Below, piece by piece: positions 1-58,294 of a stretch of DNA of 58,416 nucleotides. Location of the stretch: the NCBI GenBank assembly GCA_017416065.1, contig JAFQDM010000026.1, positions 1 through 58,416 of the forward strand, written 5' to 3'. Origin of the DNA: Ruminococcus sp. GTDB lineage: Bacteria > Bacillota > Clostridia > Oscillospirales > Acutalibacteraceae. Each line of letters opens with the position of its first letter. Within the stretch, counting starts at the first letter, position 1. Both the position numbers and the translations under genes were made by a program. The notes under the pieces are model-generated. The model had not been told where the DNA came from, searched no databases, and saw nothing but the letters and a program-made list of their open reading frames with translations.

Positions 1-120
1 ACCCTGGCGGCAGATGCAAACGGCGACGGCAAGGTGAACGTTAAGGATGCAACTGCAATCCAGAAATTCGTTGCAGGAATTCCCGTAAGCTTCCCCATTG
101 GCGAGGAAAGAAAAAAGTAA
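1..120 (+). CDS. C-terminal fragment of a dockerin-bearing protein (partial)
   Basis: An open frame runs in from the left edge and stops at 118-120. The visible 39 residues contain one perfect type I dockerin calcium-loop repeat, DANGDGKVNVKD, followed by the helix ATAIQKFVAGIPV and a short charged tail, GEERKK. In dockerins, Asp/Asn at loop positions 1, 3, 5, 9 and 12 bind calcium, and all five are present. Dockerins dock secreted enzymes or binding proteins onto cohesins. The ATxIQKF helix matches that of the large dockerin protein at 43767-48023, so both could use the same cohesins encoded at 52389-58219 (inference). The rest of the protein, probably a glycoside hydrolase or binding protein, lies outside the window. 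Confidence 0.85.
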   Translation, partial: TLAADANGDGKVNVKDATAIQKFVAGIPVSFPIGEERKK

Positions 121-43766: not shown

Positions 43767-46700
43767 ATGAAAATGACAAAGAAGATTTTGTCCATCATAT
43801 TGGTTGTTATGATGCTGTTTTCTGTTTCCATGGTAGCAACTTCTGCTTACACCGCACCCGACGGTTTCACAGTTGCTGACAAGGAAACTACAGAAGATAA
43901 GATCAACGGTGAAGTTCACGGCTTCATTGGCGACACTGATATGAGCGACAGCGTGAATGTTCGTGATGCAACGACCATTCAGAAATTCGCAGCAGATCTG
44001 ATCACTCTTAACGAGCATCAGATGCTTCTTGCTGATGTAAACTTTGACGGCAAAGTTAACGTTAAGGACTCAACTGCAGTCCGCAAGGCACTTGCAGACC
44101 TTCCCGTTGACGCTCCCGTTGGTCAGCTTATCTACAGCCCCGTTGAGGGTGTTAAGCCTACTGATCCCAAGCCCACAACTCCCCAGGTTGATCCTACAAA
44201 TCCTGAGGAAGAGCAGAAGATCGCTTCTGACTTCGTGCTTCACGGTAACTTCTTCGGCGATTGGGCAGACACAGTGCTCTACAAGGCATCAGAGAATGCA
44301 GCATTTGCAAGAGCTGTTATCGACGTAGCTCAGGGCAGCTATGCTTTTGTTATCCACAATGTAGCAACTGACGCATGGCTCAAGAACGGCGGCACTATCG
44401 ACAACACCTGCGAGGGTTGGACATTCGGCACAGATGATGCACCGGACACAACCTTCAACGCAAAGGGTGGCGCATACACCTTCTTCTTTGACCTTGCAGC
44501 TCTCAAGCTCACAGTTGTAGAGGGCGACGTAAAGGATATGCCCACAACTCCCGGCAAAGACGATAACAACGACGACAACAAGGACACATACACAATCTAC
44601 TTCACAAAGCCTGAGGATTGGGCAGATGCATATATCTACGGCTTCTATGGCGTAGAGGGTGGCGAGTCCAATGAAAATTGGCCCTCAGAGTATCCCGGCG
44701 CAAAGATGAACTTCCATGAGAAGAACGAGTTCGGTCAGGATGTTTACACATACGAGGTTCCCAAGGATATCGACTATATCAAGTTCTCTGACGGTTCCGA
44801 GAACAACCGCAGAACAAACAATGTTCCCAAGAAAGACATCAGAGACGGCAGAGGCTACTACCTTGGCGAGTCTGTTGGTGAGAACAAGTGGGCTGTTGAG
44901 TACTACGACACAATTCCCGTAGAGCCTTCCGGCGATACAGTAGAAGTATTCTTCATAAAGCCTGCTGATTGGGCAAACGCTTACATCCACATTATCGGCG
45001 AGGGTGTTGAGACAACATATCCCGGTGTTAAGATGACTCTCGTTGAGGGTGACAAGTACTCTTATGACGTTCCCGTTGAAGCAACTGCTATCAAGTTTGC
45101 AGACGGCGACTATGTTATGAACGAAGACGGCACAACCTCCGGCGCAAACAAGCGTACAGAGAACGTTGAGGCTAAGGATATCGTAGACGGCAGAGTTTAC
45201 GAGGTTGACTTCACAAAGCCCACAGAGGGTAAGGTAAACAGCTGGGCAGTTAAGTGGACTACTGATCCCACACCCACACCCGGCGATAAGATCACAGTAT
45301 ACTTCACAAAGCCTGCAGATTGGGCAGATGCTTACATCTACATAATGGATGGCAATGAGGCAGCTTATGCAGGTTACACAGCATATCCCGGTGACAAGAT
45401 GACAAAGGTTGAGGGAGACAAGTACTCCTTCGAGATCCCTGCAGATACAGGTTTCATCAAGTTCACAGACGGCACTACAGAGAATCCTGTTCCCAGAACA
45501 GAGAACGTTCCTGCTACAGACATCAAGGCTAACAGAGTTTACGAGGTAGACTTCACAAAGCCCACAGAGGGTAAAGAAAAGAGCTGGGCAGTTAAGTGGA
45601 CTGATTCCGTTGATCCTGACGTTCCCGACGTTCCCGATGTTCCTTCAACAGGCGACGAAGCAACAGGTGACGAGGCAACTATCACAGTATACTTCACAAA
45701 GCCTGCAGATTGGGACAGTGCTTTTGTTCACATTATAGGTTCTTCTGTTGTGGAAGAAAAATATCCCGGTTACGAGATGAATCTCGTAGAGGGAGATAAG
45801 TATTCTTACGAAGTTCCTGCTGATGCAGCAGAAATCAAGTTCACTGAGGGTGATACAGGTAGAGAGCCTAACATCTTCAGAACAGAGAACGTTGCGGCTA
45901 CAGATGTTGTAGACGGCAGAATCTACGAGGTAGACTTTGACAATCCCACAGCCGGTAAGGAGAATAGCTGGGCAGTAACATGGGAGGGTAAATCTGAATC
46001 CACAACCACTCCCATACCTCCCATCCCCGACGATCCCAACACACCTGCGGTTTACTTTATAAACACTGCAAACTGGGCAGAGGTCTATGCATATACCTTC
46101 AGTGAAGAGACTCTCGGCGGATGGTCCGGAACACAGATGGCAAAGACAGGCGAGCAGATTTACGGATATGATATTTATAAGATATACGTAACCGGTACTT
46201 CAGCAGGAATCGTTTTCAATAACGGCAGCGGCACCCAGACATCTGACCTTGCATATACAGCAGGCAAGTACTACGATGCTCAGGGAAATATGTATAGCTC
46301 CTTGAATGAAGTTCCTGTACCTGATGCTCTTGCAACAAACAGATTCCTTGCAGGTGAGTTCAACGGTTGGAGTGCAACTGCTAACGAGTTTAAGCTCAAA
46401 GAAGCAGGCGCTGATACTTGCTACATTGAGTTAGAGCTTCAGGCTAACACAACATATCAGTTTAAGATTGTTCGTGCAGGCACATGGACTAGCTGTAAGG
46501 ATACCCTCAGCATTACAGATACAGTAAGTGGTCTGACCTTCAGCGGATCAATAACCGATAACTGTTCTATCACAACCAAGGATGCAGGTACATATGTATT
46601 TGCATTTGGTATGGAGACATCTCAGCTTGCTGTTACATATCCCACAGGAGCTGACACAGATCCCACAGTTCCCGAACCCGGCACTCAGCCCGGTACAGAG

Positions 46701-48023
46701 CCCGGCACAGAACCCGGCACAGAGCCCGGCACAGAGCCCATTCCCGTTGAGGGCGAGTATTATCTCAGAGGCGATGCATTCGGCGGCTGGGAAACAGGCA
46801 CACTCCTCACAACAGATGGTGTGACACTTGAGCTTGCAGCAGGAACTTATGAGTTCAAGATCTTTGATGCAGCAAATGAAAAATGGCTCAAGACAGGTTC
46901 CGATGTTGAAGATACATGTGATGCTTGGACTGTAAGAGAAGGCGACGGTAACGCTAAGCTTATTGCAACAGGCGGTAAGTACACATTCTCCTACAAAACA
47001 GTAACTGAGAACGATGAGTTTAAGGTTAAGCTTACAATTACAGCTGAAGTTACTCTTCCTGAAAAATCCGGTTGGTCAGTAATCGGTGACGCTGCTGTTG
47101 CAAAGGATCTCTATGTAACAGATGCAATTTCTGAGACAGTATATTCATATACTGTAACTCTTGCAGCAGGCACATATAAGTTTAAGATTCAGGATGCTAC
47201 AGGAGCATCTCCTGTGGAATATGGTTCCAAGGTTATTACTGCAGATGCAACTCCTGCAGCAGGTGTAAATGTTGATATCAACACAGCAGATCAGTTTACA
47301 TTGAATGCAACAGGCGGTACGTACACATTCACTATTAATACAAAGAAGCAGATCGGACCGACTAAATTTGCCGTCAATGTTGTTATTACTTATGAGCCTG
47401 CTCCCGAGCCTTCAGGTTCAGCTACAGTTTACTTCATCAACTCTGCAAACTGGACAGAGGTTGCAGCTTATGCTTGGAACGATGGTGAAACACCTGCATG
47501 GCCCGGAACTTTGATGACAAAGACAGCAGAAACTGTTAACGGCTTCGATGTTTACTCAATTGCATTTGAAACTGTACCTGAGAATATTATCTTTAATAAT
47601 AACGGTAATGGTTCACAGACAGCAGACCTTAAAACTGAGGCAGGTAAGTATTTCTACCTGAAAGATTCAATGTGGTACGAATTACCTACTGACGTTCCTG
47701 AGCTTCCTTCAGCAGACGACACAATCACAGTCTACTTTGAGAAGCCCGCTGATTGGTCAGGTGCTTTTGTTCACATTATAGGTTCTTCTGTTATTGAGGA
47801 GAAATATCCCGGATACGAGATGGAACTTGTTGAGGGCAACAAGTACTCTTACAAAGTTCCCGCTGATGCTACAAAAATCAAGTTTACTGATGGTACTAAC
47901 ACAGACCCCAATAAGCGCACAGAGAACGTTGAAGCTAAGGATATCGCAGACGGCAGAGTATACCAAGTTAATCTTGATGCTCCTACCAGTGGTAAGACAA
48001 ACAGCTGGGCTGCAAAGTGGTAA
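43767..48023 (+). CDS. Secreted N-terminal-dockerin protein with about ten starch-binding-like modules
   Basis: The 1418-residue protein has a signal peptide (1-27, ending ATSAYT). A two-repeat type I dockerin follows at about 55-112 (DTDMSDSVNVRD and DVNFDGKVNVKD calcium loops). Then come beta modules of four types. Type A is near 155-252, 997-1095 and 1101-1210 (GDAFGGW). Type B begins TVYFxKPADW near 275, 393, 507, 637 and 1318. Type C is CBM26-like, near 759 and 1219 (VYFINxANW...IIFNN...QTxDL). Type D is near 858 (GEFNGW). A PGTE repeat linker lies near 975-990. No catalytic domain or C-terminal anchor is present. It probably binds starch and docks to cell-surface cohesins, like Sas-type proteins of R. 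bromii (inference). Confidence 0.87.
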   Translation: MKMTKKILSIILVVMMLFSVSMVATSAYTAPDGFTVADKETTEDKINGEVHGFIGDTDMSDSVNVRDATTIQKFAADLITLNEHQMLLADVNFDGKVNVKDSTAVRKALADLPVDAPVGQLIYSPVEGVKPTDPKPTTPQVDPTNPEEEQKIASDFVLHGNFFGDWADTVLYKASENAAFARAVIDVAQGSYAFVIHNVATDAWLKNGGTIDNTCEGWTFGTDDAPDTTFNAKGGAYTFFFDLAALKLTVVEGDVKDMPTTPGKDDNNDDNKDTYTIYFTKPEDWADAYIYGFYGVEGGESNENWPSEYPGAKMNFHEKNEFGQDVYTYEVPKDIDYIKFSDGSENNRRTNNVPKKDIRDGRGYYLGESVGENKWAVEYYDTIPVEPSGDTVEVFFIKPADWANAYIHIIGEGVETTYPGVKMTLVEGDKYSYDVPVEATAIKFADGDYVMNEDGTTSGANKRTENVEAKDIVDGRVYEVDFTKPTEGKVNSWAVKWTTDPTPTPGDKITVYFTKPADWADAYIYIMDGNEAAYAGYTAYPGDKMTKVEGDKYSFEIPADTGFIKFTDGTTENPVPRTENVPATDIKANRVYEVDFTKPTEGKEKSWAVKWTDSVDPDVPDVPDVPSTGDEATGDEATITVYFTKPADWDSAFVHIIGSSVVEEKYPGYEMNLVEGDKYSYEVPADAAEIKFTEGDTGREPNIFRTENVAATDVVDGRIYEVDFDNPTAGKENSWAVTWEGKSESTTTPIPPIPDDPNTPAVYFINTANWAEVYAYTFSEETLGGWSGTQMAKTGEQIYGYDIYKIYVTGTSAGIVFNNGSGTQTSDLAYTAGKYYDAQGNMYSSLNEVPVPDALATNRFLAGEFNGWSATANEFKLKEAGADTCYIELELQANTTYQFKIVRAGTWTSCKDTLSITDTVSGLTFSGSITDNCSITTKDAGTYVFAFGMETSQLAVTYPTGADTDPTVPEPGTQPGTEPGTEPGTEPGTEPIPVEGEYYLRGDAFGGWETGTLLTTDGVTLELAAGTYEFKIFDAANEKWLKTGSDVEDTCDAWTVREGDGNAKLIATGGKYTFSYKTVTENDEFKVKLTITAEVTLPEKSGWSVIGDAAVAKDLYVTDAISETVYSYTVTLAAGTYKFKIQDATGASPVEYGSKVITADATPAAGVNVDINTADQFTLNATGGTYTFTINTKKQIGPTKFAVNVVITYEPAPEPSGSATVYFINSANWTEVAAYAWNDGETPAWPGTLMTKTAETVNGFDVYSIAFETVPENIIFNNNGNGSQTADLKTEAGKYFYLKDSMWYELPTDVPELPSADDTITVYFEKPADWSGAFVHIIGSSVIEEKYPGYEMELVEGNKYSYKVPADATKIKFTDGTNTDPNKRTENVEAKDIADGRVYQVNLDAPTSGKTNSWAAKW

Positions 48024-48715: not shown

Positions 48716-49306
48716 ATGTTGCTTTATGATATTTCTGCAGATATTCTGACGGCTAAGGTCTACGACGGAGACCCTGCGCCCACCCATGAATACATAAAAA
48801 GCATAGAGGATGGGGATGAATATAATCTGTCCCGGTTTAGTATGTGTTCTCACAACGCCACCCACATAGATGCTCCCTATCATTTCGACCCTGAAGGTCA
48901 GAAGATTGACGAGATGCGGCTTTCTACCTTCTACGGTCTGTGCACGGTGGTATCTGTGAAGGGAATCCTTACAGGACAGGATATGGAGCGACTTCTGCCC
49001 CATTGCAAAAAGCGGCTTATCCTCCACGGTGAGGGAGAGGCCTTTATCTCTCAGAGTGCGGCAGTTGTCATTGCAGACAGCAACATCGTACTCGTTGGCA
49101 CAGACGGCATATGCCTTTCCACAGCCTTTGACGAGATGCGAGTCCACCTTGAATTTGCGAGAAAGGGTATTGCTACCCTTGAGGGTCTTGACCTAAGCGG
49201 AATCCGTGACGGTGAGTACACCCTCTGTGCTTTTCCCATCAAGCTTTCCGGCTCTGAGGCGGCTCCCTGCCGAGCAATACTTCTGGAGCAGGAGAAGGGC
49301 TTTTGA
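48716..49306 (+). CDS. Putative cyclase / kynurenine-formamidase-like hydrolase
   Basis: The 196-residue protein matches the cyclase family (PF04199). The metal motif SHNATHIDAPYHF gives H46, H50, D52 and H56, a variant of the usual HxGTHxDxPxH. LVGTDG and the C-terminal ALLLE-like AILLEQE are family features. Members hydrolyse N-formyl-kynurenine, isatin or other amides, or act as cyclases; the substrate cannot be assigned. It heads a likely operon with a phosphatase and queH. AAAAGGAGTGGT precedes the ATG. Confidence 0.85.
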   Translation: MLLYDISADILTAKVYDGDPAPTHEYIKSIEDGDEYNLSRFSMCSHNATHIDAPYHFDPEGQKIDEMRLSTFYGLCTVVSVKGILTGQDMERLLPHCKKRLILHGEGEAFISQSAAVVIADSNIVLVGTDGICLSTAFDEMRVHLEFARKGIATLEGLDLSGIRDGEYTLCAFPIKLSGSEAAPCRAILLEQEKGF

Positions 49307-49349
49307 TCTTGCTTAATATTCTGAATTAGAAATATACGGAGGCTTCCTT

Positions 49350-50006
49350 TTGAAGAAATTAGTTATCTTTGACCTTGACGGCACCCTTGTAAACTCAATA
49401 TATGACCTGGCGGATTGTGTGAATCTTGCGCTGTCTGCACATTCTCTGCCAAAAATCACCCTGCAGGAATGCTATTCCTTTGTGGGACACGGAATTGAGA
49501 ATCTTATCCGTACCTCTATGAAGTCTCAGGGTGGTAACGATGAACTTTACGGCAAGGTCAGGAGCACCTTTGACGTCCTGTATGCCGCCCATTGTAACGA
49601 CAAAACCGTGGCATATGACGGTGTAGCACAGTTGCTTGCAAAGCTGGGGGACAAAGGCATCAGGACCGCAGTGCTTACCAACAAAGCTCACGAGTTTGTA
49701 GATGGTATACTGCGCAAATGCTTTCCGGAGCATACGTTTTCTATTGCATGGGGAAACAGACTGGGCTTAAACCGCAAGCCTGACCCTCAGGGTCTCTTTG
49801 CACTTATCAAGGAGGCAGGATGCACAGCCGAGGAATGTGTTTTCGTTGGCGACAGTGAGGTTGACGTGCACACAGCTAAAAACGCAAGCATTGACCTTGT
49901 GTGCGTAGACTGGGGCTTCAGAAGTCGTGAACAGCTCTTGCAAAGCGGTGCAGAGATCATCACATCTGATGCAGAGGAATTGTATAGAGCTTTAATTTCC
50001 TTTTAA
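49350..50006 (+). CDS. HAD-family phosphatase, phosphoglycolate-phosphatase-like
   Basis: The 218-residue HAD hydrolase has the nucleophile motif FDLDGTLVNS (D8 and D10), motif II AVLTNKAH, motif III Lys in NRKPDPQG and the acidic VFVGDSEVDVHTA. The cap region fits the Gph/PpaX subgroup, which removes phosphate from phosphoglycolate, pyrophosphate or similar small molecules. The start is a TTG at 49350, placed 6 bases after CGGAGG. It sits 43 bases after the cyclase gene. Confidence 0.9.
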   Translation: MKKLVIFDLDGTLVNSIYDLADCVNLALSAHSLPKITLQECYSFVGHGIENLIRTSMKSQGGNDELYGKVRSTFDVLYAAHCNDKTVAYDGVAQLLAKLGDKGIRTAVLTNKAHEFVDGILRKCFPEHTFSIAWGNRLGLNRKPDPQGLFALIKEAGCTAEECVFVGDSEVDVHTAKNASIDLVCVDWGFRSREQLLQSGAEIITSDAEELYRALISF

Positions 50007-50029
50007 GAAATAAATTGCTGAGTGATTTT

Positions 50030-50638
50030 ATGAACAACAGAAACTATCAAAAAGAACTGGATTCTATTATTAATAGTATAGAGGAGGGGGGGATCGTGCC
50101 CACTCTGCTTCTGCACAGCTGCTGTGCTCCCTGCTCAAGCTATGTGTTGGAGTACTTGTCCTCTTATTTCAGGATTACGGTGTTTTACTATAATCCTAAT
50201 ATTTCTTCAAAAGAAGAATACGACCTGCGTCTTCTGGAGCAAAAGAGGCTTATTTCAGAACTTCCTGCAAAGCATCCCATAGAGCTTATTGAGGGCGAAT
50301 ATGAGCCTGCAATATTCTATGAGCTTGCAAAGGGCTTGGAGAAATGCCCCGAGCGAGGAGAGCGATGCCAAAAATGCTACCGATTGCGCCTTGAGGAAAC
50401 CGCAAAGCTTGCCAAAGCCACGGGAGCAGACTTCTTTGCTACAACCCTCACCTTAAGTCCCCTGAAGGATGCAAAGGCTCTTAACGCCATAGGCGAAGAG
50501 TTGGGGAAGGTGTACGGCGTAGAATACCTATGCACAGATTTCAAAAAACGCGGGGGATACCTGCGTTCTATCCAGCTTTCCAAGGAATACGGACTCTACA
50601 GACAGAACTTCTGCGGTTGCGTGTATTCAAAAAATTAA
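50030..50638 (+). CDS. queH: Epoxyqueuosine reductase QueH
   Basis: The 202-residue protein reduces epoxyqueuosine to queuosine in tRNA (known role of QueH, the non-cobalamin alternative to QueG). Expected cysteines are present: HSCCAPC (C31, C32, C35), RCQKCYRLRLEETA and the C-terminal FCGC. The ALT-type TTLTLSPLKD motif is also conserved. The start at ATG 50030 is preferred over a TTG at 50015; its ribosome site is weak, and it may rely on coupling to the phosphatase gene 23 bases upstream. Confidence 0.93.
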   Translation: MNNRNYQKELDSIINSIEEGGIVPTLLLHSCCAPCSSYVLEYLSSYFRITVFYYNPNISSKEEYDLRLLEQKRLISELPAKHPIELIEGEYEPAIFYELAKGLEKCPERGERCQKCYRLRLEETAKLAKATGADFFATTLTLSPLKDAKALNAIGEELGKVYGVEYLCTDFKKRGGYLRSIQLSKEYGLYRQNFCGCVYSKN

Positions 50639-50670
50639 AACGATTACATATTAATTGTAAGTGAAAATAT

Positions 50671-50722
50671 TTATCCTCTGCATCAGGCGCCAGAGCGTGC
50701 CTTTGTGCAGAGGATTTTTGTG
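50671..50722 (+). terminator. Terminator after queH
   Basis: ATCCTCTGCA / TGCAGAGGAT with a 23-base loop containing GGCGCC, then TTTTTGTGTTTT. Confidence 0.85.
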
Positions 50723-50759
50723 TTTTAATTGACAAAATATGAAAAAAAGCGTCAAGATG

Positions 50760-50788
50760 TTGATTTTTTCATTAAAAAGATATATTAT
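50760..50788 (+). promoter_or_regulatory. Promoter of the E2-like acyltransferase gene
   Basis: TTGATT, 17 bases, TATTAT. Confidence 0.65.
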
Positions 50789-50831
50789 TAATACATTGTT
50801 AACATTTCGGAAAAATAAAAGAGGTGGATTT

Positions 50832-51749
50832 ATGCGCGCAGACGGCAGAAAAACAAAGAACGTGTTTCCCATGTATAAGGTAGCGGCGCATCTTATGAGC
50901 AAGCGCTACGATGCAATGAATATGATAACTCTGGATATTCCTCTGGAACCTATCAGAACATATCTGAATCAAAAGAAAAAGGAAGGAATATATCTGAGCC
51001 ATATGGGCTTGTTTATTGCCGCGTATCTGCGCACCCTGGCAGAGTTTCCTCACCTTAACCGCTTTGTTGTTAATAAGCAGATATATTCCAGAAACGAGAT
51101 ATCCGTTGCAATGGTGGTGCTCAAATCAGGAGATATCAATCAGGAAACTATGTCCAAAATGTACTTTGAACCTGAGGATACAGTTTTTGACGTGCAGAAT
51201 AAGATCGATGAATATGTAACGGAGAATCGCAAGGCAGACGCGAGCAACGGCACGGATAAGATCATCAATACACTCCTGAGCATTCCGGGACTCTTAACGG
51301 TAGGTGTAGGTCTTTTTAAGCTCCTTGACAGATACGGCCTGCTTCCAAGGGCGATCATTGACGTGAGCCCCTTCCATGAGTCCTTGCTCATTACAAATCT
51401 TGCCAGCATCCGCACAAACCATATATATCATCATACCTATGGCTTCGGCACAACCAGCCTTGCCATGGCAATGGGAAATCTTCGTGATGTGCCCAAGCGC
51501 CGCTCAGGCGAGATACATCTGGAGAGATGCATCCCCGTGGGCCTTGTTATGGACGAGAGGATTGCAACCGGAGTATACTTTGCTCAGGCTTTCCGCAAGT
51601 TCAAAGAGTATCTGAGTGACCCCTCAAAGCTCGAAACGCCGGCACAGAAGATAATTCTGGATTTTGATAACCAATATAAAAAGCAGAAGCTCCGCAGAGA
51701 GAAGATTGCCCTGAAGAAAGAAAAAAAGGCACAAGGCACAAAAGAATAA
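50832..51749 (+). CDS. Stand-alone E2/CAT-fold acyltransferase-like protein, active site altered
   Basis: The 305-residue protein resembles the catalytic (CAT-fold) domain of 2-oxoacid dehydrogenase E2 without lipoyl or peripheral-subunit domains. Matching segments are FPMYKVAAHLMSKRYDAM, SHMGLFIAAYLRTLAEFPHLNRFV (quoted in part), NEISVAMVV, LLITNLASI and a FGTTSLAMAMG strand. In true E2 enzymes the last conserved motif is DHRVxDG; here it is DERIATG, so the catalytic His and the Asp are both replaced. It is likely non-catalytic or uses different chemistry. The C-terminal 30 residues are very Lys-rich. ATG 50832 follows AGAGGTG. Confidence 0.75.
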   Translation: MRADGRKTKNVFPMYKVAAHLMSKRYDAMNMITLDIPLEPIRTYLNQKKKEGIYLSHMGLFIAAYLRTLAEFPHLNRFVVNKQIYSRNEISVAMVVLKSGDINQETMSKMYFEPEDTVFDVQNKIDEYVTENRKADASNGTDKIINTLLSIPGLLTVGVGLFKLLDRYGLLPRAIIDVSPFHESLLITNLASIRTNHIYHHTYGFGTTSLAMAMGNLRDVPKRRSGEIHLERCIPVGLVMDERIATGVYFAQAFRKFKEYLSDPSKLETPAQKIILDFDNQYKKQKLRREKIALKKEKKAQGTKE

Positions 51750-52316: not shown

Positions 52317-52345
52317 TTGATTTTTTTGACATCTTGTTTTATAAT
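52317..52345 (+). promoter_or_regulatory. Promoter of cohesin gene 1 (AAGGGG-TTGATT class)
   Basis: TTGATT, 17 bases, TATAAT, preceded by AATAAGGGG. A near-identical block precedes the gene at 53486, including the leader AAGCATAAAATTAAAAGGAGG. Confidence 0.8.
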
Positions 52346-52388: not shown

Positions 52389-53195
52389 ATGTCCAAAACA
52401 AGCAAGGTAATCAGCTTTATCCTTATGGTTATGCTGGTTATGACAATGTCCGCAGTTGCAGTTTCCGCAGACGTAGTTTGCGATGCTCCCGCAGGCACAA
52501 CAGTTACTTACACAGTAGACGTAACAGCAGCAAGATACTTCGAGGACGTTCAGGCTGTAGTTAACTACGATGCAGCAGCTCTTGAGCTCGTTCGCATTGA
52601 GTCTGAGGATCCCAACGTTGAGCAGTGGATGGTAGAGGGCCCCGCAAGATGCCCCAACCTCGACGGTGTTATCTTCAACGCTGGCACAGAGGGCGTTATC
52701 AAGTTCAACGCTTCTAAGGTTACAGGCTTCAACTTCACAGAGAAGAAGAGCCTTGTTACTCTCGAGTTCGTTGTTAAGACAGAGGGTTCTACAATCGGTC
52801 TTACAATCGATGAGATGACAATCCTCGGCGGTGCTGATTCTTACTTCACAGCTGGTGCAGCTTCTGTAACAGAGGGCATCACAGTTGACGAGTACATCAC
52901 ATTCGAGGCTCCCGAGACAACAGCTCCTGTTACAACAGCTCCTGTAACAACAGCACCTCCCACAGATGCTCCTGCAACAACAGTAGCTCCCGAGACAACA
53001 GTAGCTCCCGAGACACAGGCTCCCACAACTGTTCCTGCTCCTGCAACAGATGCAACAGGTATTACAGAGGCTCCTGCAACTGAGAAGGTTGACGCTCCTG
53101 CAACAGGCGCTGCAACTTACATCTATGTTGCTATGGCTATGATGGCTATGGCTGCATGTGCAGTTGTTGTTCTTCGCAAGAAGGCTAACGGCTAA
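52389..53195 (+). CDS. Cell-surface cohesin-like protein 1
   Basis: The 268-residue protein has a signal peptide (1-28, ending AVSAD). A single cohesin-like domain follows (about 29-180): TVTYTVDV, QAVVNYDAAALELVRI, a WMVEGPARCPNLDG loop, VIKFNASKVTGF, LVTLEFVV and the last strand ITVDEYITFE. Next is a Thr/Pro/Ala-rich linker (about 182-235), then DAPATGAATYIYVAMAMMAM and RKK at the C terminus. Cohesins bind dockerins. The tail looks like a PATG-type sortase signal or simply a membrane anchor. It has no carbohydrate-binding module, unlike its paralogues at 53486 and 56717. Ribosome site AAGGAGG. Confidence 0.85.
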   Translation: MSKTSKVISFILMVMLVMTMSAVAVSADVVCDAPAGTTVTYTVDVTAARYFEDVQAVVNYDAAALELVRIESEDPNVEQWMVEGPARCPNLDGVIFNAGTEGVIKFNASKVTGFNFTEKKSLVTLEFVVKTEGSTIGLTIDEMTILGGADSYFTAGAASVTEGITVDEYITFEAPETTAPVTTAPVTTAPPTDAPATTVAPETTVAPETQAPTTVPAPATDATGITEAPATEKVDAPATGAATYIYVAMAMMAMAACAVVVLRKKANG

Positions 53196-53243
53196 TTCTA
53201 AATAAAGCCTATCAATAATTAGAATTTAATTATTATGCTTTTT

Positions 53244-53276
53244 CGCCCCTTCGGTTTTCCGAGGGGGCGTTTTTTT
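53244..53276 (+). terminator. Terminator of cohesin gene 1
   Basis: CGCCCCtTCGG / CCGaGGGGGCG-type hairpin with TTTTTTT. Almost the same sequence follows the genes at 53486 and 56717. Confidence 0.9.
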
Positions 53277-53413
53277 GAGTTAAGAGTGAATAGAGAAGAG
53301 AGAAAAATATAGAATTGAAAGTTAAAAGAGAGAAAATCAGATCCCGTGCAGGTGCTTGGAATGAAATATATTACTGAAAAACATCAAAATTATTAAAGTT
53401 GTGTAATAAGGGG

Positions 53414-53442
53414 TTGATTTTTTCTGACACTTGATATATAAT
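53414..53442 (+). promoter_or_regulatory. Promoter of cohesin gene 2 (AAGGGG-TTGATT class)
   Basis: TTGATT, 17 bases, TATAAT, preceded by AATAAGGGG, as at 52317. Confidence 0.8.
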
Positions 53443-53485
53443 GATACTTGCTTAAAAAGCATAAAATTAAAAGGAGGAATTTTTC

Positions 53486-54775
53486 ATGTCCACAACTAAG
53501 AAGATAATCAGCATGATCGTTATGGTTGCGCTGGTTATGACAATGGCAACAGTTGCTATCGTTTCTACATCAGCTGCTGCTAAGGTTTACTTTGAAGACA
53601 GCCTCTCTTGGGGCAACATTAATGCATACTGCTACGGCGGCGACGGCGAGCTTCTCGGCACATGGCCCGGCAAGGCATGCACAGACGAGGGTAACGGCGT
53701 TTGGTCCATCGAGCTCAACGGCGCACCCGAGGCTATTATTTTCCACGCAAATGATGATGCAAATCAGACAAGCAACATCCCCTTTGCAGGCGACAACATG
53801 ATCGCTAAGCTCACAGGCGAGTGGATCCAGGGCGACTACAAAATGGTAGCAGTTGCTGAGTTCTCCGCTTATGAGACTGCACCTGCAGCAACAGATGATA
53901 CAGCAGCAACAGACGACGTTCCTGCAACAGATGCTCCTGCAACAACAGAGGCTCCTGCTACTACAGAGGCTCCTGCTACAACAGCTCCCGTTGTAAATCC
54001 TGCAGAGACAGGTATCGATGTTGACGGCACAATCTATGATGTTCCCGCAGGCACAACAGTTACTTACACAGCAACTGTAACTGCAGATCAGCTCTTTGAG
54101 GATGTACAGGCTTACGTTGCATACGACAGCACAGTTCTTGAGCTGGTTCGCATCACTTCTGATGATGCAAACGTTGCTGATTGGATCGTAGAAGGTCCTG
54201 CAAGATGCCCCAACCTGAACAACGTTCTCTTCAACGGCGGCATTGACGGCGTAGTTAAGTTCAACGCTTCTGACGTTACAGGCTTCGACTTCACAGACGG
54301 CAAGGTTCTTGTTACTCTTGAGTTCGTAGTTAAGGATACAGCTTACTCCGCAATCGAGCTTGTTGTTGACGAAATGACAATCAAGGGCGGCGCAGAGTCC
54401 TACTTCACAGACGGTGCAGCTTCCGTAACAGACGGTATCACAATCGTTGAGACTCTTACATTCGAAGAGGAGAAGGAGACAACTCCCGACGAGACAGAGC
54501 CCACAACAGCTGAGCCCACAGAGCCCACAACAGCTGAGCCCACAACAGCTGAGCCCACAACAGCAGCTCCCGTAACAACAGCTCCCACAGATGCTCCCTC
54601 AACTACTGTTCCTGCTCCCGCAACAAGCGATGCAACAGGTGTACAGGGTACAACAGCAACAGATCCTGCTGACGTTGTTATCACAGGCGCTACAACATAC
54701 ATCTACATTGCACTTGCAATGATGGCTATGGCAGCATGCGCAGTTGTTGTTCTTCGCAAGAAGGTTAACGGCTAA
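53486..54775 (+). CDS. Cell-surface protein: starch-binding (CBM26-like) module + cohesin
   Basis: The 429-residue protein has a signal peptide (1-31), then a CBM26-like module (about 33-130: KVYFEDSLSWGNINAYCY, GTWPGKAC, AIIFHAND, QTSNIPF), whose aromatic residues would stack on glucans. A TTEAPA-type linker follows (about 133-172), then a cohesin-like domain (about 178-325), with YTATVTA, YVAYDSTVLELVRI, WIVEGPARCPNLNN and LVTLEFVV. A second EPTTA-repeat linker and a C-terminal anchor complete it (TGATTYIYIALAMMAMAACA, RKK). It would hold one dockerin partner and starch at the cell surface (inference). The residues before TG are VI, so a classic sortase motif is absent. Confidence 0.85.
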   Translation: MSTTKKIISMIVMVALVMTMATVAIVSTSAAAKVYFEDSLSWGNINAYCYGGDGELLGTWPGKACTDEGNGVWSIELNGAPEAIIFHANDDANQTSNIPFAGDNMIAKLTGEWIQGDYKMVAVAEFSAYETAPAATDDTAATDDVPATDAPATTEAPATTEAPATTAPVVNPAETGIDVDGTIYDVPAGTTVTYTATVTADQLFEDVQAYVAYDSTVLELVRITSDDANVADWIVEGPARCPNLNNVLFNGGIDGVVKFNASDVTGFDFTDGKVLVTLEFVVKDTAYSAIELVVDEMTIKGGAESYFTDGAASVTDGITIVETLTFEEEKETTPDETEPTTAEPTEPTTAEPTTAEPTTAAPVTTAPTDAPSTTVPAPATSDATGVQGTTATDPADVVITGATTYIYIALAMMAMAACAVVVLRKKVNG

Positions 54776-54822
54776 TTTAGAATAAAACCCGCAAATAATT
54801 TTATTTAATTGTTATGCTTTTT

Positions 54823-54854
54823 CGCCCCTTCGGTTTTCCGAGGGGGCGTTTTTC
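54823..54854 (+). terminator. Terminator of cohesin gene 2
   Basis: The same CGCCCCTTCGG...CCGAGGGGGCG hairpin as at 53244, followed by TTTTTC. Confidence 0.9.
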
Positions 54855-54888
54855 TTGTGTTGTAATGCAAATGGATTGATAAAACGGA

Positions 54889-54917
54889 TTGTAATTTACG
54901 AATATATGATATATAAT
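54889..54917 (+). promoter_or_regulatory. Promoter of cohesin-like gene 3 (TTGTAA class)
   Basis: TTGTAA, 17 bases, TATAAT, within GATTGTAATTTAC. Confidence 0.8.
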
Positions 54918-54950
54918 TATTGTATTAACTCTTAATTAAGGAGGATGAAT

Positions 54951-55670
54951 ATGAAAAGACTATGGATTAAGATTTTGACTTTGATGATTGTGATAATTCT
55001 TGCATGCGGATCATATGTCAATATATTTGCTGCAGTCAACGGACAAAAAACCAAGAAAGAAAGCATAGTTGAGTATACATTTTATATTTCAGATGCGGTG
55101 CAGACCATCACGGGCATTCACCTGGAGTTCTTCTTTGATCAGAATGTGCTGGAGCTCAAGGACGTAAACACAGATAATCTGCCAAACTCAACCATTAATG
55201 CAAATAGTAACAGAGACGGATCCGTTAGGGTTGTAAACGGACTTATAAACGGTGCTCAGGGACTTGCCTGCAGCGAGAAAACAGAGCTTGTAAGGCTTAC
55301 TTTTGAGGTTATAGGCGAGGGCGACACAGAGATAAAATACTACATTCCCTATATGTACGACTATGACTTGGTGAATCTTTACGACTACACTCTCAGCCAG
55401 ACTATTACCATTGACGGCAAGACTGTAATAGAGGATACCCCTCCCGTGCTTGCAGATGACACTGACTTCGAACATATTGAGGGATTTGAAAAGGGTGATT
55501 TCCCGAATACAAAAGACGGAAAGGGTCATTCCAATGCTTCTCAGGAAGAAGAGCAAACAGAAATTTCTGAGGAGAATCGGGAAGAGAATTATTATTCGTT
55601 CGTTAAAGCATGCGTTTATACCGGGGTAATTGCAAGTGCAGTAAGCGTGGTTATACTTCTGTTAACTTAA
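54951..55670 (+). CDS. Membrane-anchored cohesin-like protein 3
   Basis: The 239-residue protein has a signal peptide or N-terminal membrane segment (5-27). One cohesin-like domain follows (about 30-170: VEYTFYISDAVQTITGIHLEF, quoted in part, then FDQNVLELKDV, GSVRVVNGLI, LVRLTFEVIGEG, YTLSQTITIDG). An acidic, Glu-rich spacer and a final hydrophobic segment (VKACVYTGVIASAVSVVILLL) with no basic tail end it. The domain family differs from the cohesins at 52389, 53486 and 56717. It is nearly duplicated by the next gene. ATG 54951 is chosen because AAGGAGG directly abuts the ATG at 54945. Confidence 0.78.
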   Translation: MKRLWIKILTLMIVIILACGSYVNIFAAVNGQKTKKESIVEYTFYISDAVQTITGIHLEFFFDQNVLELKDVNTDNLPNSTINANSNRDGSVRVVNGLINGAQGLACSEKTELVRLTFEVIGEGDTEIKYYIPYMYDYDLVNLYDYTLSQTITIDGKTVIEDTPPVLADDTDFEHIEGFEKGDFPNTKDGKGHSNASQEEEQTEISEENREENYYSFVKACVYTGVIASAVSVVILLLT

Positions 55671-55714
55671 TATTAAGTAGAGATGCTATTCACTATTAAA
55701 TTTCAAAATCTACA

Positions 55715-55743
55715 TTGTAATTTACTGTTCAATGTTGTATAAT
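55715..55743 (+). promoter_or_regulatory. Promoter of cohesin-like gene 4 (TTGTAA class)
   Basis: TTGTAA, 17 bases, TATAAT, within CATTGTAATTTAC; the element was probably copied with the gene at 54951. Confidence 0.8.
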
Positions 55744-55786
55744 GGTTTTTATGTGGTTTATTAAATTATCAACAAGGAGAATTGTT

Positions 55787-56545
55787 ATGAAAAAGCTTTC
55801 TAAAATTCTTATTACAATGATTATTGCGGCAGTGCTTTTGTGCGCTTCCCTTGTGCCTGCTTTGGGTGCAGTAAACGGCAAAGAGGCAGAGGTGGGCAGT
55901 ACAGTAGAGTACTCTCTGTGCATTTCAGATGCAGTGCAGACCATCACGGGTATTCACCTGGAGTTCTTCTTTGATCAGGACGTGCTGGAGCTCAAGGACG
56001 TAAACACAGATAATCTGCCAAACTCAACCGTTAACGCAAATAATAACAAAGACGGATCCGTTAAGATCGTAAACGGACTTATAAACGGTGCTCAGGGACT
56101 TGCCTGCAGCGAGAAAACAGAGCTTGCAAAGCTTACCTTTGAGGTTATAGGCGAGGGCGATGCAGACATCAAGTACTATATTCCCTATATGTACGACTAC
56201 GATGTGGTGAATCTTTATGATTACACTCTCAGCCAGACCATTACCATTGACAACCAGACCGTAGTAGAGGATATCCCTCCCGTGCTTGCAGATGACTCTG
56301 ACTACGGACACATAGAGAAGTTTGACAAGGGTGACTTTGCAAATAACGAAGAGGGTACAGGCTCAGGCATTAAGCCCGAACCCACCACAGCAAAGAGTGT
56401 GGCCGCAGATGCAGAAGCAGACAACGGTGGTAATTCTACCGTCATTATAGCTTGCATTTGTGTAGCTGTAATCGTTGGTGCGGTTGTTGTGCTTGTAGTT
56501 GCAAAATCAAAAGCCGGCAAGTCTGAGAATCAGAATTGGGAATAA
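55787..56545 (+). CDS. Membrane-anchored cohesin-like protein 4
   Basis: The 252-residue protein is a tandem duplicate of the gene at 54951. The domain (about 25-165) differs from it at only a small fraction of positions (YSLCISDAVQTITGIHLEFF, FDQDVLELKDVNTDNLPNST). The spacer differs: GSGIKPEPTTAKSVAADAEA. The C terminus has a transmembrane helix (TVIIACICVAVIVGAVVVLVV) followed by a basic tail, AKSKAGKSENQNWE, so it is probably a type I membrane protein. Start ATG 55787 follows AAGGAGAATTGTT. It may bind a dockerin of different specificity from the other cohesins (inference). Confidence 0.78.
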   Translation: MKKLSKILITMIIAAVLLCASLVPALGAVNGKEAEVGSTVEYSLCISDAVQTITGIHLEFFFDQDVLELKDVNTDNLPNSTVNANNNKDGSVKIVNGLINGAQGLACSEKTELAKLTFEVIGEGDADIKYYIPYMYDYDVVNLYDYTLSQTITIDNQTVVEDIPPVLADDSDYGHIEKFDKGDFANNEEGTGSGIKPEPTTAKSVAADAEADNGGNSTVIIACICVAVIVGAVVVLVVAKSKAGKSENQNWE

Positions 56546-56630
56546 TATCCCGGATCCTTATTAAGTCGTAAGGGTATTATCTGCCGCAGATTACAATAGG
56601 GTAACATTTGATAAATTTGGTCTAATCCTA

Positions 56631-56659
56631 TTGACTTTTTGCGGTAGTTAATATACAAT
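56631..56659 (+). promoter_or_regulatory. Promoter of cohesin gene 5
   Basis: TTGACT, 17 bases, TACAAT. It belongs to neither of the two shared promoter types. Confidence 0.75.
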
Positions 56660-56716
56660 ATATTATGCCGAAATTCATTCGGTAGAATAGTACTATTTTA
56701 TTAGGAGGAATTGAAA

Positions 56717-58219
56717 ATGACCAAAAAGATTCTTAGTGTTCTTTTGGCAGTCGTTATGGTTCTCGCAATGGGTACTGTAGCTCTGGTTTCTGTTTCTGCT
56801 GATCTTGCTGATCTTCCCGAGCAGCCTGCAGAGACATACAGATACTACTTCTTTATGCCCCCCGAGTGGCTTAACGATTCAACAGCTACCACAGGTAATA
56901 CCGCAGGTATCTACTGGTGGGAAGGCACAGGTGCACATGGCGGCTGGCCCGGCATGGCAGCTACACCTGCAGATGTAGAGGGCGTATACTATTGTGACGT
57001 TCCTACAGATGTTACAACTATCGTTTGGAACAACTTCTTTGACGGTGGTGCAGACACAACTGCTCCTTACTATGCAGATGCTATCCAGACTCGTAACATC
57101 GGCACAGAGTATTACGATCCCGACGAGAGCGAGCTCTATCCCGAAGGTACTCCCAACTTTGATGGTATGATCTACGTAACAGACTTTACTATCTATGATT
57201 TCAACGAGTACAGCGGCAAGCTCCAGTTCGGCGGTGAGTGGTTCTACTACTACGGCAACGGCGAGTACGGTACAGCTACTGAGAAGGGTGGCAGCGAGGT
57301 TTACACAGCTTATGCTACAAACAACGATCAGCCCTTCCCCAAGGATGGTCCCCAGACTGAGACTACTCCTGCAGCAACAGATGCTCCTGCAACAACAGTT
57401 GCTCCCACAGATGCTCCTGCAACAACAGTAGCTCCCACAGATGCTCCTGCAACAACAGAGGCACCTGCAACAACTGTAGCTCCCACAGAGGCTCCCGCAG
57501 CTTCCACAAACATCACATTCGGTTCTGAGACCAAGACAGCTCTTGTTGGCGACAGAGTAACATATACAATCGATGTTACAGCTGCAAGATACTTCGAGGA
57601 TGTTCAGGCTAACGTTACTTATGATGCAGAGAAGCTCCAGGTTGTTCGTATCACATCCGATGATCCCAACGTTGAGGATTGGATGGTAGAAGGTCCTGCA
57701 AGATGCCCCAACCTTGACGGTGTTATCTTCAACGCAAGCGTTGACGGCGTTGTTAAGTTCAATGCAGCTAAGGTTACAGGCTTCAACTTCACAGAGGCTA
57801 AGAACCTTGTAACTCTCGAGTTCGACGTTATCGCAGCAGGCGATGCAAACATCACAGCTGTTATCGATGAGATGACAATCATGGGTGGTGCAGAGTCCTA
57901 CTTCACAGCTGGTGCTCCTTCCGTAACAGAGGGTATCACAGTTGTTGAGAGCCTTGACGTGCCCGTTCCCGAGACACAGCCCACAACAGCAGAGCCCACA
58001 GAGGCACCTACACAGGCTCCCGCAACAGCAGAGCCCACAGAGAAGGTAACTGTTCCTGCTCCTGCAACAGATGTAACAGGTGAGACAGAGAAGCCCGCAA
58101 CATCTGACGAGGCAGATACACCTTCCACAGGTGCAGCAACATACCTCTACATTGCACTTGCAATGATGGCTATGGCAGCATGCGCAGTTGTTGTTCTTCG
58201 CAAGAAGGTTAACGGCTAA
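56717..58219 (+). CDS. Cell-surface protein: starch-binding-like module + cohesin
   Basis: The 500-residue protein has a signal peptide (1-28). An N-terminal module of about 185 residues is rich in Trp and Tyr (YYFFMPPEWLNDSTA, GIYWWEGTGAHGGWPGM, TTIVWNNFFDGG, GGEWFYYYGNGEYGT) and resembles CBM25/26-type starch-binding folds. A repeated TTVAPTDAPA linker follows (about 215-260), then a cohesin-like domain (about 265-410) very close to that of the protein at 52389, including WMVEGPARCPNLDG and YFTAGAPSVTEGI. A second Thr/Pro linker and the anchor TPSTGAATYLYIALAMMAM with RKK end it. ATG 56717 is 8 bases after AGGAGG; the TTG at 56711 is too close. Confidence 0.85.
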   Translation: MTKKILSVLLAVVMVLAMGTVALVSVSADLADLPEQPAETYRYYFFMPPEWLNDSTATTGNTAGIYWWEGTGAHGGWPGMAATPADVEGVYYCDVPTDVTTIVWNNFFDGGADTTAPYYADAIQTRNIGTEYYDPDESELYPEGTPNFDGMIYVTDFTIYDFNEYSGKLQFGGEWFYYYGNGEYGTATEKGGSEVYTAYATNNDQPFPKDGPQTETTPAATDAPATTVAPTDAPATTVAPTDAPATTEAPATTVAPTEAPAASTNITFGSETKTALVGDRVTYTIDVTAARYFEDVQANVTYDAEKLQVVRITSDDPNVEDWMVEGPARCPNLDGVIFNASVDGVVKFNAAKVTGFNFTEAKNLVTLEFDVIAAGDANITAVIDEMTIMGGAESYFTAGAPSVTEGITVVESLDVPVPETQPTTAEPTEAPTQAPATAEPTEKVTVPAPATDVTGETEKPATSDEADTPSTGAATYLYIALAMMAMAACAVVVLRKKVNG

Positions 58220-58262: not shown

Positions 58263-58294
58263 CGCCCCTCCGGTTTCCGGAGGGGTGTTTTTTT
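58263..58294 (+). terminator. Terminator of cohesin gene 5
   Basis: CGCCCCTCCGG / CCGGAGGGGtG with TTTTTTT, a variant of the hairpins after genes 1 and 2. Confidence 0.9.

Follow-up and report, generated by a model that had tools for sequence, protein, structure and literature searches.

A five-gene cluster of predicted surface cohesins

The window is a 58,416 bp stretch of DNA, the whole of contig C23 of a metagenome-assembled genome (MAG; here G000) of 1.86 Mb and 84.8% completeness. Five consecutive genes at its right end each encode a secreted protein with a cohesin-like domain (Table 1). All five proteins have a signal-peptide-like hydrophobic N-terminus and a hydrophobic C-terminal segment. 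Shine-Dalgarno positions favour the start codons given in Table 1. This confirms the array of secreted genes in the original prediction, which was made from the letters of the window. The domains are of two types, A in genes 1, 2 and 5 and B in genes 3 and 4. Gene 5 stops 197 bp short of the contig end, so the cluster may extend further.

Table 1. Coordinates of the cluster genes and other features of the window
Feature	Position	Strand	Description
Gene 1, type A	52389..53195	+	268 residues; signal peptide, cohesin A 52461-52925, Thr/Pro linker, APATG + hydrophobic segment + RKK 53097-53189
Gene 2, type A	53486..54775	+	429 residues; signal peptide, CBM26 53582-53779, linker, cohesin A 54017-54487, Thr/Pro linker, degenerate VVITG + hydrophobic segment + RKK
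Gene 3, type B	54951..55670	+	239 residues; signal peptide, cohesin B 55029-55469, acidic linker, C-terminal membrane helix without sorting motif
Gene 4, type B	55787..56545	+	252 residues; signal peptide, cohesin B 55859-56305, acidic linker, membrane helix, charged tail
Gene 5, type A	56717..58219	+	500 residues; signal peptide, CBM26-like module ~56846-57058 and further region, Thr/Pro linker, cohesin A 57515-57985, Thr/Pro linker, TPSTG + hydrophobic segment + RKK
Promoter-like site, gene 1	52317..52345	+	TTGATT-17-TATAAT, 10/12 consensus match
Promoter-like site, gene 2	53414-53442	+	10/12 consensus match
Promoter-like site, gene 3	54889-54917	+	10/12 consensus match
Promoter-like site, gene 4	55715-55743	+	10/12 consensus match
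Promoter-like site, gene 5	56631-56659	+	10/12 consensus match
Terminator-like hairpin after gene 1	53244..53269	+	11 base pairs, 9 of them G-C
Terminator-like hairpin after gene 2	54823-54848		Same as that of gene 1
Terminator-like hairpin after gene 5	58263-58287		Similar to that of gene 1
Likely client of the anchors	43767..48023	+	Secreted, N-terminal dockerin and 7 CBM26, 1418 residues
Flank used for synteny	48716..51749	+	Arylformamidase-like, phosphoglycolate phosphatase-like, QueH and acyltransferase-like genes
C-terminal half dockerin	1..120	+	39-residue fragment cut by the contig start; outside the cluster

Two types of cohesin domain

The Pfam cohesin model PF00963 (cut-off 24.1) recognizes three of the five proteins, those of gene 1 (24.2), gene 3 (open reading frame (ORF) 54945; 29.6) and gene 4 (ORF 55742; 36.9). 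Gene 5 (ORF 56711) scores 21.3, below the cut-off, and gene 2 has no match to PF00963 at E≤1. The cohesin domain of gene 1 shares 65% of its residues with that of gene 2 and 68% with that of gene 5. Identities are 65-68% within type A, 81% within type B and about 20% between the types. A local hidden Markov model (HMM) was seeded with the five domains and iterated on fetched ORFs. It gives these domains 123-144 bits, scores that are circular for the five. It matched 112 of 1024 ORFs from cluster loci, and 0/1024 reversed and 0/1024 shuffled ORFs. Both the cohesin-like domains of the original prediction and their division into two types are borne out by these results.

Profiles of both types were also compared with the sequences of solved structures. 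The best match of a type-A profile (26 domains) is 7urp (E 2.6e-7). A type-B profile (23 domains) matches cellulosomal cohesins (4ums, 6.8e-5) and 7urp (2.2e-4). Single window proteins found no cohesin among PDB sequences with phmmer; the family profiles did. 7urp was deposited as ‘Ribonucleases G and E’. It is read here as Coh6, the second cohesin of the Ruminococcus bromii scaffoldin Sca5, because a single ORF of genome G100 encodes the Sca5 X25-2 domain (7rpy) and, immediately downstream, 7urp. A second cohesin after X25-2 is also part of the Sca5 domain order in the accessible text of PMC9112005.

The type-B and Sca5-like proteins of genome G034 are also missed by the Pfam cohesin model. 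A search of the genome contigs with gene 1 returned mostly matches to its Thr/Pro linker or anchor, and only L038 aligned across the cohesin, at 28% identity.

Linkers, anchors and starch-binding modules

The regions following the cohesins differ between the two types. Thr/Pro linkers had been predicted for the whole array. They hold for the three type-A genes, with a T+P fraction of 0.42-0.49 after the cohesin, and not for the two type-B genes, the linkers of which are acidic (T+P 0.08-0.10, D+E 0.23-0.31). Genes 1 and 5 end in an xPxTG motif followed by a hydrophobic segment and RKK, and the motif is degenerate in gene 2. No sorting motif was found at the C-termini of genes 3 and 4. When the C-terminal 30 residues were sought genome-wide, the three type-A genes were the only matches.

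Genes 2 and 5 also contain starch-binding modules, which the original prediction had missed. The CBM26 of gene 2 scores 50.2 bits with Pfam. The CBM26-like module of gene 5 was detected (61 bits) only by a local HMM seeded with the gene 2 module. Judged from these matches, genes 2 and 5 encode starch-binding anchors.

The locus across the genus

Among 161 genomes of the genus, type-A domains are matched in 98 and type-B domains in 126 (E≤0.001). The locus was examined in 41 genomes. A type-B gene is found there in 40, and in G111 the contig ends before its position. The gene upstream of B encodes cohesins in 28 of the 40 and is located at or close to the end of its contig in three; the gene downstream has CBM26 in 36 of the 40. 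B is flanked on both sides by A-kind cohesin genes in nine genomes including G000, or ten if two contig ends of G077 join. The nine loci contain three to six cohesin genes each. The tandem cluster had been thought unusual. Its recurrence in these genomes argues otherwise, as does the clustering of scaffoldin genes in cellulosomes, which is classical (PMC2930009, in the portion available to us).

We placed the cohesins in a tree of 146 rows, the root of which is unresolved. Type B forms one clade of 45 rows (support 95/98), 44 of which had been labelled B beforehand; the remaining row, from G016, was outside the labelling rule. The single clade indicates that B is an old gene. Sixteen A cohesins, from the window and the species closest to it, join those of C10 and of the two Coh-Coh-Doc scaffoldins of G000 in a 21-row clade (100/99).

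In R. bromii-like genomes the locus contains Sca5. Searches with the Sca5 X25-2 domain (E≤0.001) showed identities of 85% in G034, 94% over 103 residues in G100, 74% in G066 and 59% in G032. These four genomes share the gene order Sca5 (X25-Coh-X25-Coh), B, CBM26 anchor, CBM26-cohesin anchor, the Sca5 of G100 being cut by the contig start. The Sca5 cohesin of G100 agrees with the solved structure in 158 of 160 residues, counted on the printed alignment, and by this match G100 is R. bromii or very near kin. The original prediction held that R. bromii-type amylosomes spread their scaffoldins. On the contrary, the Sca5, type-B and CBM26-cohesin genes of the four genomes form one short cluster, with other cohesins elsewhere; strain L2-63 lies outside this comparison.

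X25-2 is matched in 118 of the 161 genomes, a number that does not count Sca5 genes because the domain also occurs in Sas20-like proteins. No match was found in G000, as far as its 84.8% complete assembly extends. Of the 13 genomes that have A-type clusters, X25-2 is matched in G114 alone, and weakly. In the genomes with A-type clusters, CBM26-cohesin anchors occupy the place of Sca5. Mixed architectures are also found. G099 combines X25, CBM26 and three cohesins in one protein. At the same locus, G016 encodes a 1698-residue sortase-type surface protein (L231:8638-13731, minus strand) with X25, a CBM26 just below cut-off and seven cohesin-like repeats, one of which is detected by Pfam, below cut-off.

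Upstream flanks of the locus differ. A 337-residue gene, UDP-glucose 4-epimerase-like by eye, is present in 19 loci, whereas in the window clade the flank holds arylformamidase-, phosphatase- and QueH-like genes. Several genomes bridge the two arrangements. G022 has arylformamidase-, phosphatase- and QueH-like genes together with the epimerase and a type-B gene. In G099, a CBM26-three-cohesin scaffoldin and B stand next to QueH and the acyltransferase. Two downstream genes link 13 genomes (including G073, G106, G109, G026 and G114) to the epimerase-bearing G022, G117, G138 and G142. From the gene order of these bridging genomes and the shared type-B gene, we infer that the window cluster and the Sca5 cluster derive from one ancestral locus, in which the window cluster holds the sca5 position. 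Equivalence of the 336-residue upstream gene of the window with the 337-residue gene of R. bromii-like genomes was considered and rejected, as the former is acyltransferase-like and the latter, judged by eye, UDP-glucose 4-epimerase-like.

Cohesins, dockerins and sortases in the genome

G000 contains 12 cohesin domains in 10 proteins, including the five window genes. The others belong to two Coh-Coh-Doc scaffoldins (C15, C36) and to single-cohesin proteins in C10, C14 (with a membrane helix) and C22. The C22 protein (L185:10173-11027; G000:C22:15173-16027) has a lipobox-like N-terminus, identified by eye, and a C-terminal cohesin. It is possible that it represents a third way to anchor a cohesin. 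The total leaves out a cohesin-like stretch of the dockerin protein C29:15260, which scores 54 bits, sits on a very long branch and has no match to the Pfam cohesin model. Three sortases were found, two of them class B-like and below the family cut-off on partial sequences.

A genome-wide search for dockerins, of the kind that the original prediction had proposed, returned 55 hits, which correspond to 53 proteins and two contig-start fragments. Of the two dockerins initially noted in the window, that in the protein at 43767 stands, and that at 1-120 is only half a module. The 43767 protein precedes the cluster. A gene with a dockerin and 8 CBM26 likewise precedes it in G077. In four more species (G020, G045, G071, G111) the preceding gene is CBM26-rich and cut by the contig end, and no dockerin part was seen in it.

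Pfam families on the 53 proteins include CBM26 (15), LRR_5 (12), GH13 (PF00128; 3), phosphoesterase (3), CotH, CHAP, MucBP and pullulanase all-beta (2 each) and GH25 and peptide-binding (one each), as well as CBM48. This tally covers the 25 commonest of 42 families, with 17 rarer ones outside it. One might suppose that the anchors serve a plant-fibre system, that is, a cellulosome, since the cohesin/dockerin logic is the same and a single-cohesin sortase anchor resembles R. flavefaciens ScaE (PMC2930009, from the part of the article accessible). However, dockerin proteins here bear GH13, CBM26, CBM48 and pullulanase domains, and no cellulase or xylanase family is found among the 25 commonest of the 42. 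We consider a cellulosome highly improbable.

The dockerin motif, [DN][ASTVC]Tx[IVLA][QR]K (kind D-A-T-x-I-Q-K), is present in both halves of 49 of the 55 hits, including both Coh-Coh-Doc scaffoldins. It is present in one half of four (three half modules and one divergent half) and absent from two. Such near-uniform motifs suggest shared sockets rather than one dedicated partner per anchor, contrary to the earlier expectation that each protein holds one dockerin partner. Many dockerins probably compete for the same cohesins. A distinct class of scaffoldin dockerins was sought among those of G000 and not found. It is conceivable, though somewhat doubtful, that A and B are specialized sockets with different dedicated dockerins, for example B for scaffoldins and A for enzymes, which would order the complex. 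The low A-B identity, the separate clade of B and the adjacency of both kinds in many species are consistent with this arrangement; the common motif kind in 49 dockerins, those of the Coh-Coh-Doc scaffoldins among them, weighs against it.

The domains could also be cohesin-fold adhesins that bind starch, host or wall polymers in place of dockerins, making the cluster an adhesion locus. Two of the anchors contain CBM26, the loci of some other species also encode CBM26-anchor proteins that have no cohesin, and the Pfam scores of the window cohesins are weak. Against this, the type-A profile is nearest 7urp, our Sca5 Coh6, and Coh6 binds the Sas20 dockerin by enzyme-linked immunosorbent assay (PMC9112005, in its accessible text). 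In addition, the same genome encodes 53 dockerin proteins, and in the tree the window A cohesins fall together with those of the two Coh-Coh-Doc scaffoldins from that genome. We regard adhesins as very unlikely.

The peptide-binding (SBP_bac_5) dockerin protein of the tally, which names no member, is taken for that at L176:4619-6607 (G000:C7:37618-39606). Its dockerin lies right after the signal peptide, and no lipobox was seen by eye. A second copy (C19:38818-40473; 67% over residues 111-661) has no dockerin hit. In G093, G035, G158 and G087, matches to the C7 protein begin at residues 2-4, in the dockerin region (E≤1e-30; hit spans only). The 12 proteins with LRR_5 fuse the dockerin to BspA-type leucine-rich repeats and not to enzymes (for example, L175:13240-16197 and L187:15923-17299).

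A probable variant of the sca5 locus

Taken together, the cluster is very probably the surface-scaffoldin (sca5) locus of an uncultured bacterium related to R. bromii, part of an amylosome-type system in which several short proteins replace the large X25-cohesin scaffoldin Sca5. The system is assigned to the amylosome type because of its 12 cohesins, three sortases and 53 dockerin proteins, including GH13 and many CBM26. The amylosome-like surface anchor set of the original prediction is thereby supported by cohesin homology, anchors, CBM26, dockerin-borne GH13 and CBM26 proteins and the gene order of the Sca5 locus.

In the mechanism we propose, type-A proteins would be attached to the wall by sortase, and type-B proteins would be held in the membrane by their C-terminal helix. 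The anchor cohesins would bind, in a calcium-dependent manner, the near-uniform dockerins of amylases, CBM26 proteins and Coh-Coh-Doc scaffoldins. The scaffoldins would multiply the docking sites, and the CBM26 modules would keep the starch granule beside the anchors.

Several observations weigh against this assignment. The weakest links of the mechanism appear to be the degenerate sorting signals and cohesin-dockerin binding, which is deduced from sequence. The type-A sorting signals score below the NCBIfam and Pfam curated cut-offs (for gene 1, Rumino_NPXTG 19.6 versus 23.5, LPXTG_anchor 15.3 versus 15.9 and Pfam anchor 16.9 versus 20), and that of gene 2 lacks the proline. GH13 is found on only three of the 53 dockerin proteins, whereas 12 have LRR_5 and others phosphoesterase, CotH, CHAP, GH25 or peptide-binding domains; the complex is therefore not for starch alone. 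Upstream of B, no cohesin gene is present in nine of the 40 genomes. The A cohesins of G073, G106, G109, G026 and G114 join the window group only in a weaker set (89/82). Replacement of X25 by CBM26 is not clean, since the two occur together in one A-type protein of G071 (41.2 bits for X25 with Pfam). Furthermore, the 41 genomes were picked by hit strength and are a non-random set, and at 84.8% completeness absences from G000 carry little weight.

Relation to known systems

The closest known counterpart is R. bromii Sca5 (X25-Coh5-X25-Coh6-sortase). It belongs to the same genus and, by gene order and the neighboring type-B gene, to the same locus. Both systems combine a starch-binding module, cohesins and a C-terminal sorting signal, and 7urp is nearest to the type-A cohesins among solved structures. 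The window differs from it in having no X25-2 match, CBM26 in the anchors, several one-cohesin proteins in place of one two-cohesin protein and two type-B copies instead of one.

Other systems were compared by what the accessible parts of their descriptions say. The R. flavefaciens sca cluster with ScaE (PMC2930009) also has clustered scaffoldin genes and a single-cohesin, C-terminally anchored protein, and dockerin-bearing scaffoldins exist. The window differs in its five anchors in one cluster, none with a dockerin, in the CBM within anchors, in starch rather than cellulose as substrate and in the bare membrane helix of type B. Clustered scaffoldin genes with a single-cohesin sortase anchor are thus known already from R. 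flavefaciens, and the cluster here is a rearranged version of a known system. In Lachnoclostridium sp. MSJ-17 (PMC11557425), presumably non-cellulolytic and with many dockerins, a single cohesin with a transmembrane helix is likewise a presumed anchor. A cluster, CBM26 and type-A proteins do not appear in the portion of its description available, and the comparison is one of descriptions, not sequences. The Limousia mucinolysome (PMC12997984) is also a cohesin-dockerin complex for a non-cellulose substrate, with a sortase-type anchoring scaffoldin, cSca5. Its enzymes act on mucin and its scaffoldins have multiple cohesins; the part of the report available describes no tandem single-cohesin anchors. 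No description of a tandem cluster of single-cohesin amylosome anchors was found in titles and abstract openings of the open-access papers that the searches returned.

Published models of R. bromii include five scaffoldins and six cohesins, with sortase signals in Sca2 and Sca5 (PMC5814915, PMC9112005, in the text available from each). G100 and G034 have eight cohesin domains each with the local profile. Up to two cohesins may therefore be unreported, which is a lead only, as G100 is not L2-63. The type-B cohesin family beside Sca5, missed by the Pfam model in the R. bromii-like G034, is a possible gap in models of this keystone starch degrader of the human gut.

Our analysis points to one conserved locus that encodes a large part of the amylosome's surface end in the R. 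bromii genus. Species appear to meet the same task differently, some with an X25 protein of two or three cohesins, some with a CBM26 protein in which cohesin-like domains number three or seven and some with up to six short one-cohesin anchors. Comparison of species makes the roles of multivalency and of the starch-binding module testable.

A more speculative idea, which we consider unlikely, is that type B is a largely overlooked, genus-wide cohesin family forming a second, membrane-proximal docking layer beneath the sortase-anchored outer layer. The type-B linker of about 50 residues would keep the cohesin inside the wall, where it could hold dockerin-tethered proteins acting at the membrane, for example the dockerin-bearing oligopeptide-binding protein of G000, in which no lipobox was seen by eye. 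If this were true, R. bromii would have at least one cohesin omitted from current amylosome models, and cohesin-dockerin pairing would replace lipid anchoring for some transport proteins.

Transcription signals and other features

Each of the five genes is preceded by a promoter-like site, the second hexamer of which ends 34-58 nt upstream of the start codon. The scanned stretch contains four other sites with a 10/12 match, one on the forward strand (52083) and three on the reverse strand. Counted on both strands of this stretch as consensus matches only, promoter-like sites number 20 versus a mean of 11.3 in shuffles, and terminator-like sites 12 versus 5.5. The separate promoter-like sites suggest that each anchor may be dosed separately.

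The half dockerin at positions 1-120 of the window recurs unchanged at the start of contig C2, and the ends of dockerins on C24 and C28 are nearly the same. The assembly was probably interrupted at these contig starts by repeats of dockerin DNA. Contig C13 contains, on its minus strand and including L201:2-9859, an open frame of 5286 residues with a GH13 match. A class B-like sortase gene is located on the same contig, about 6 kb from this frame.

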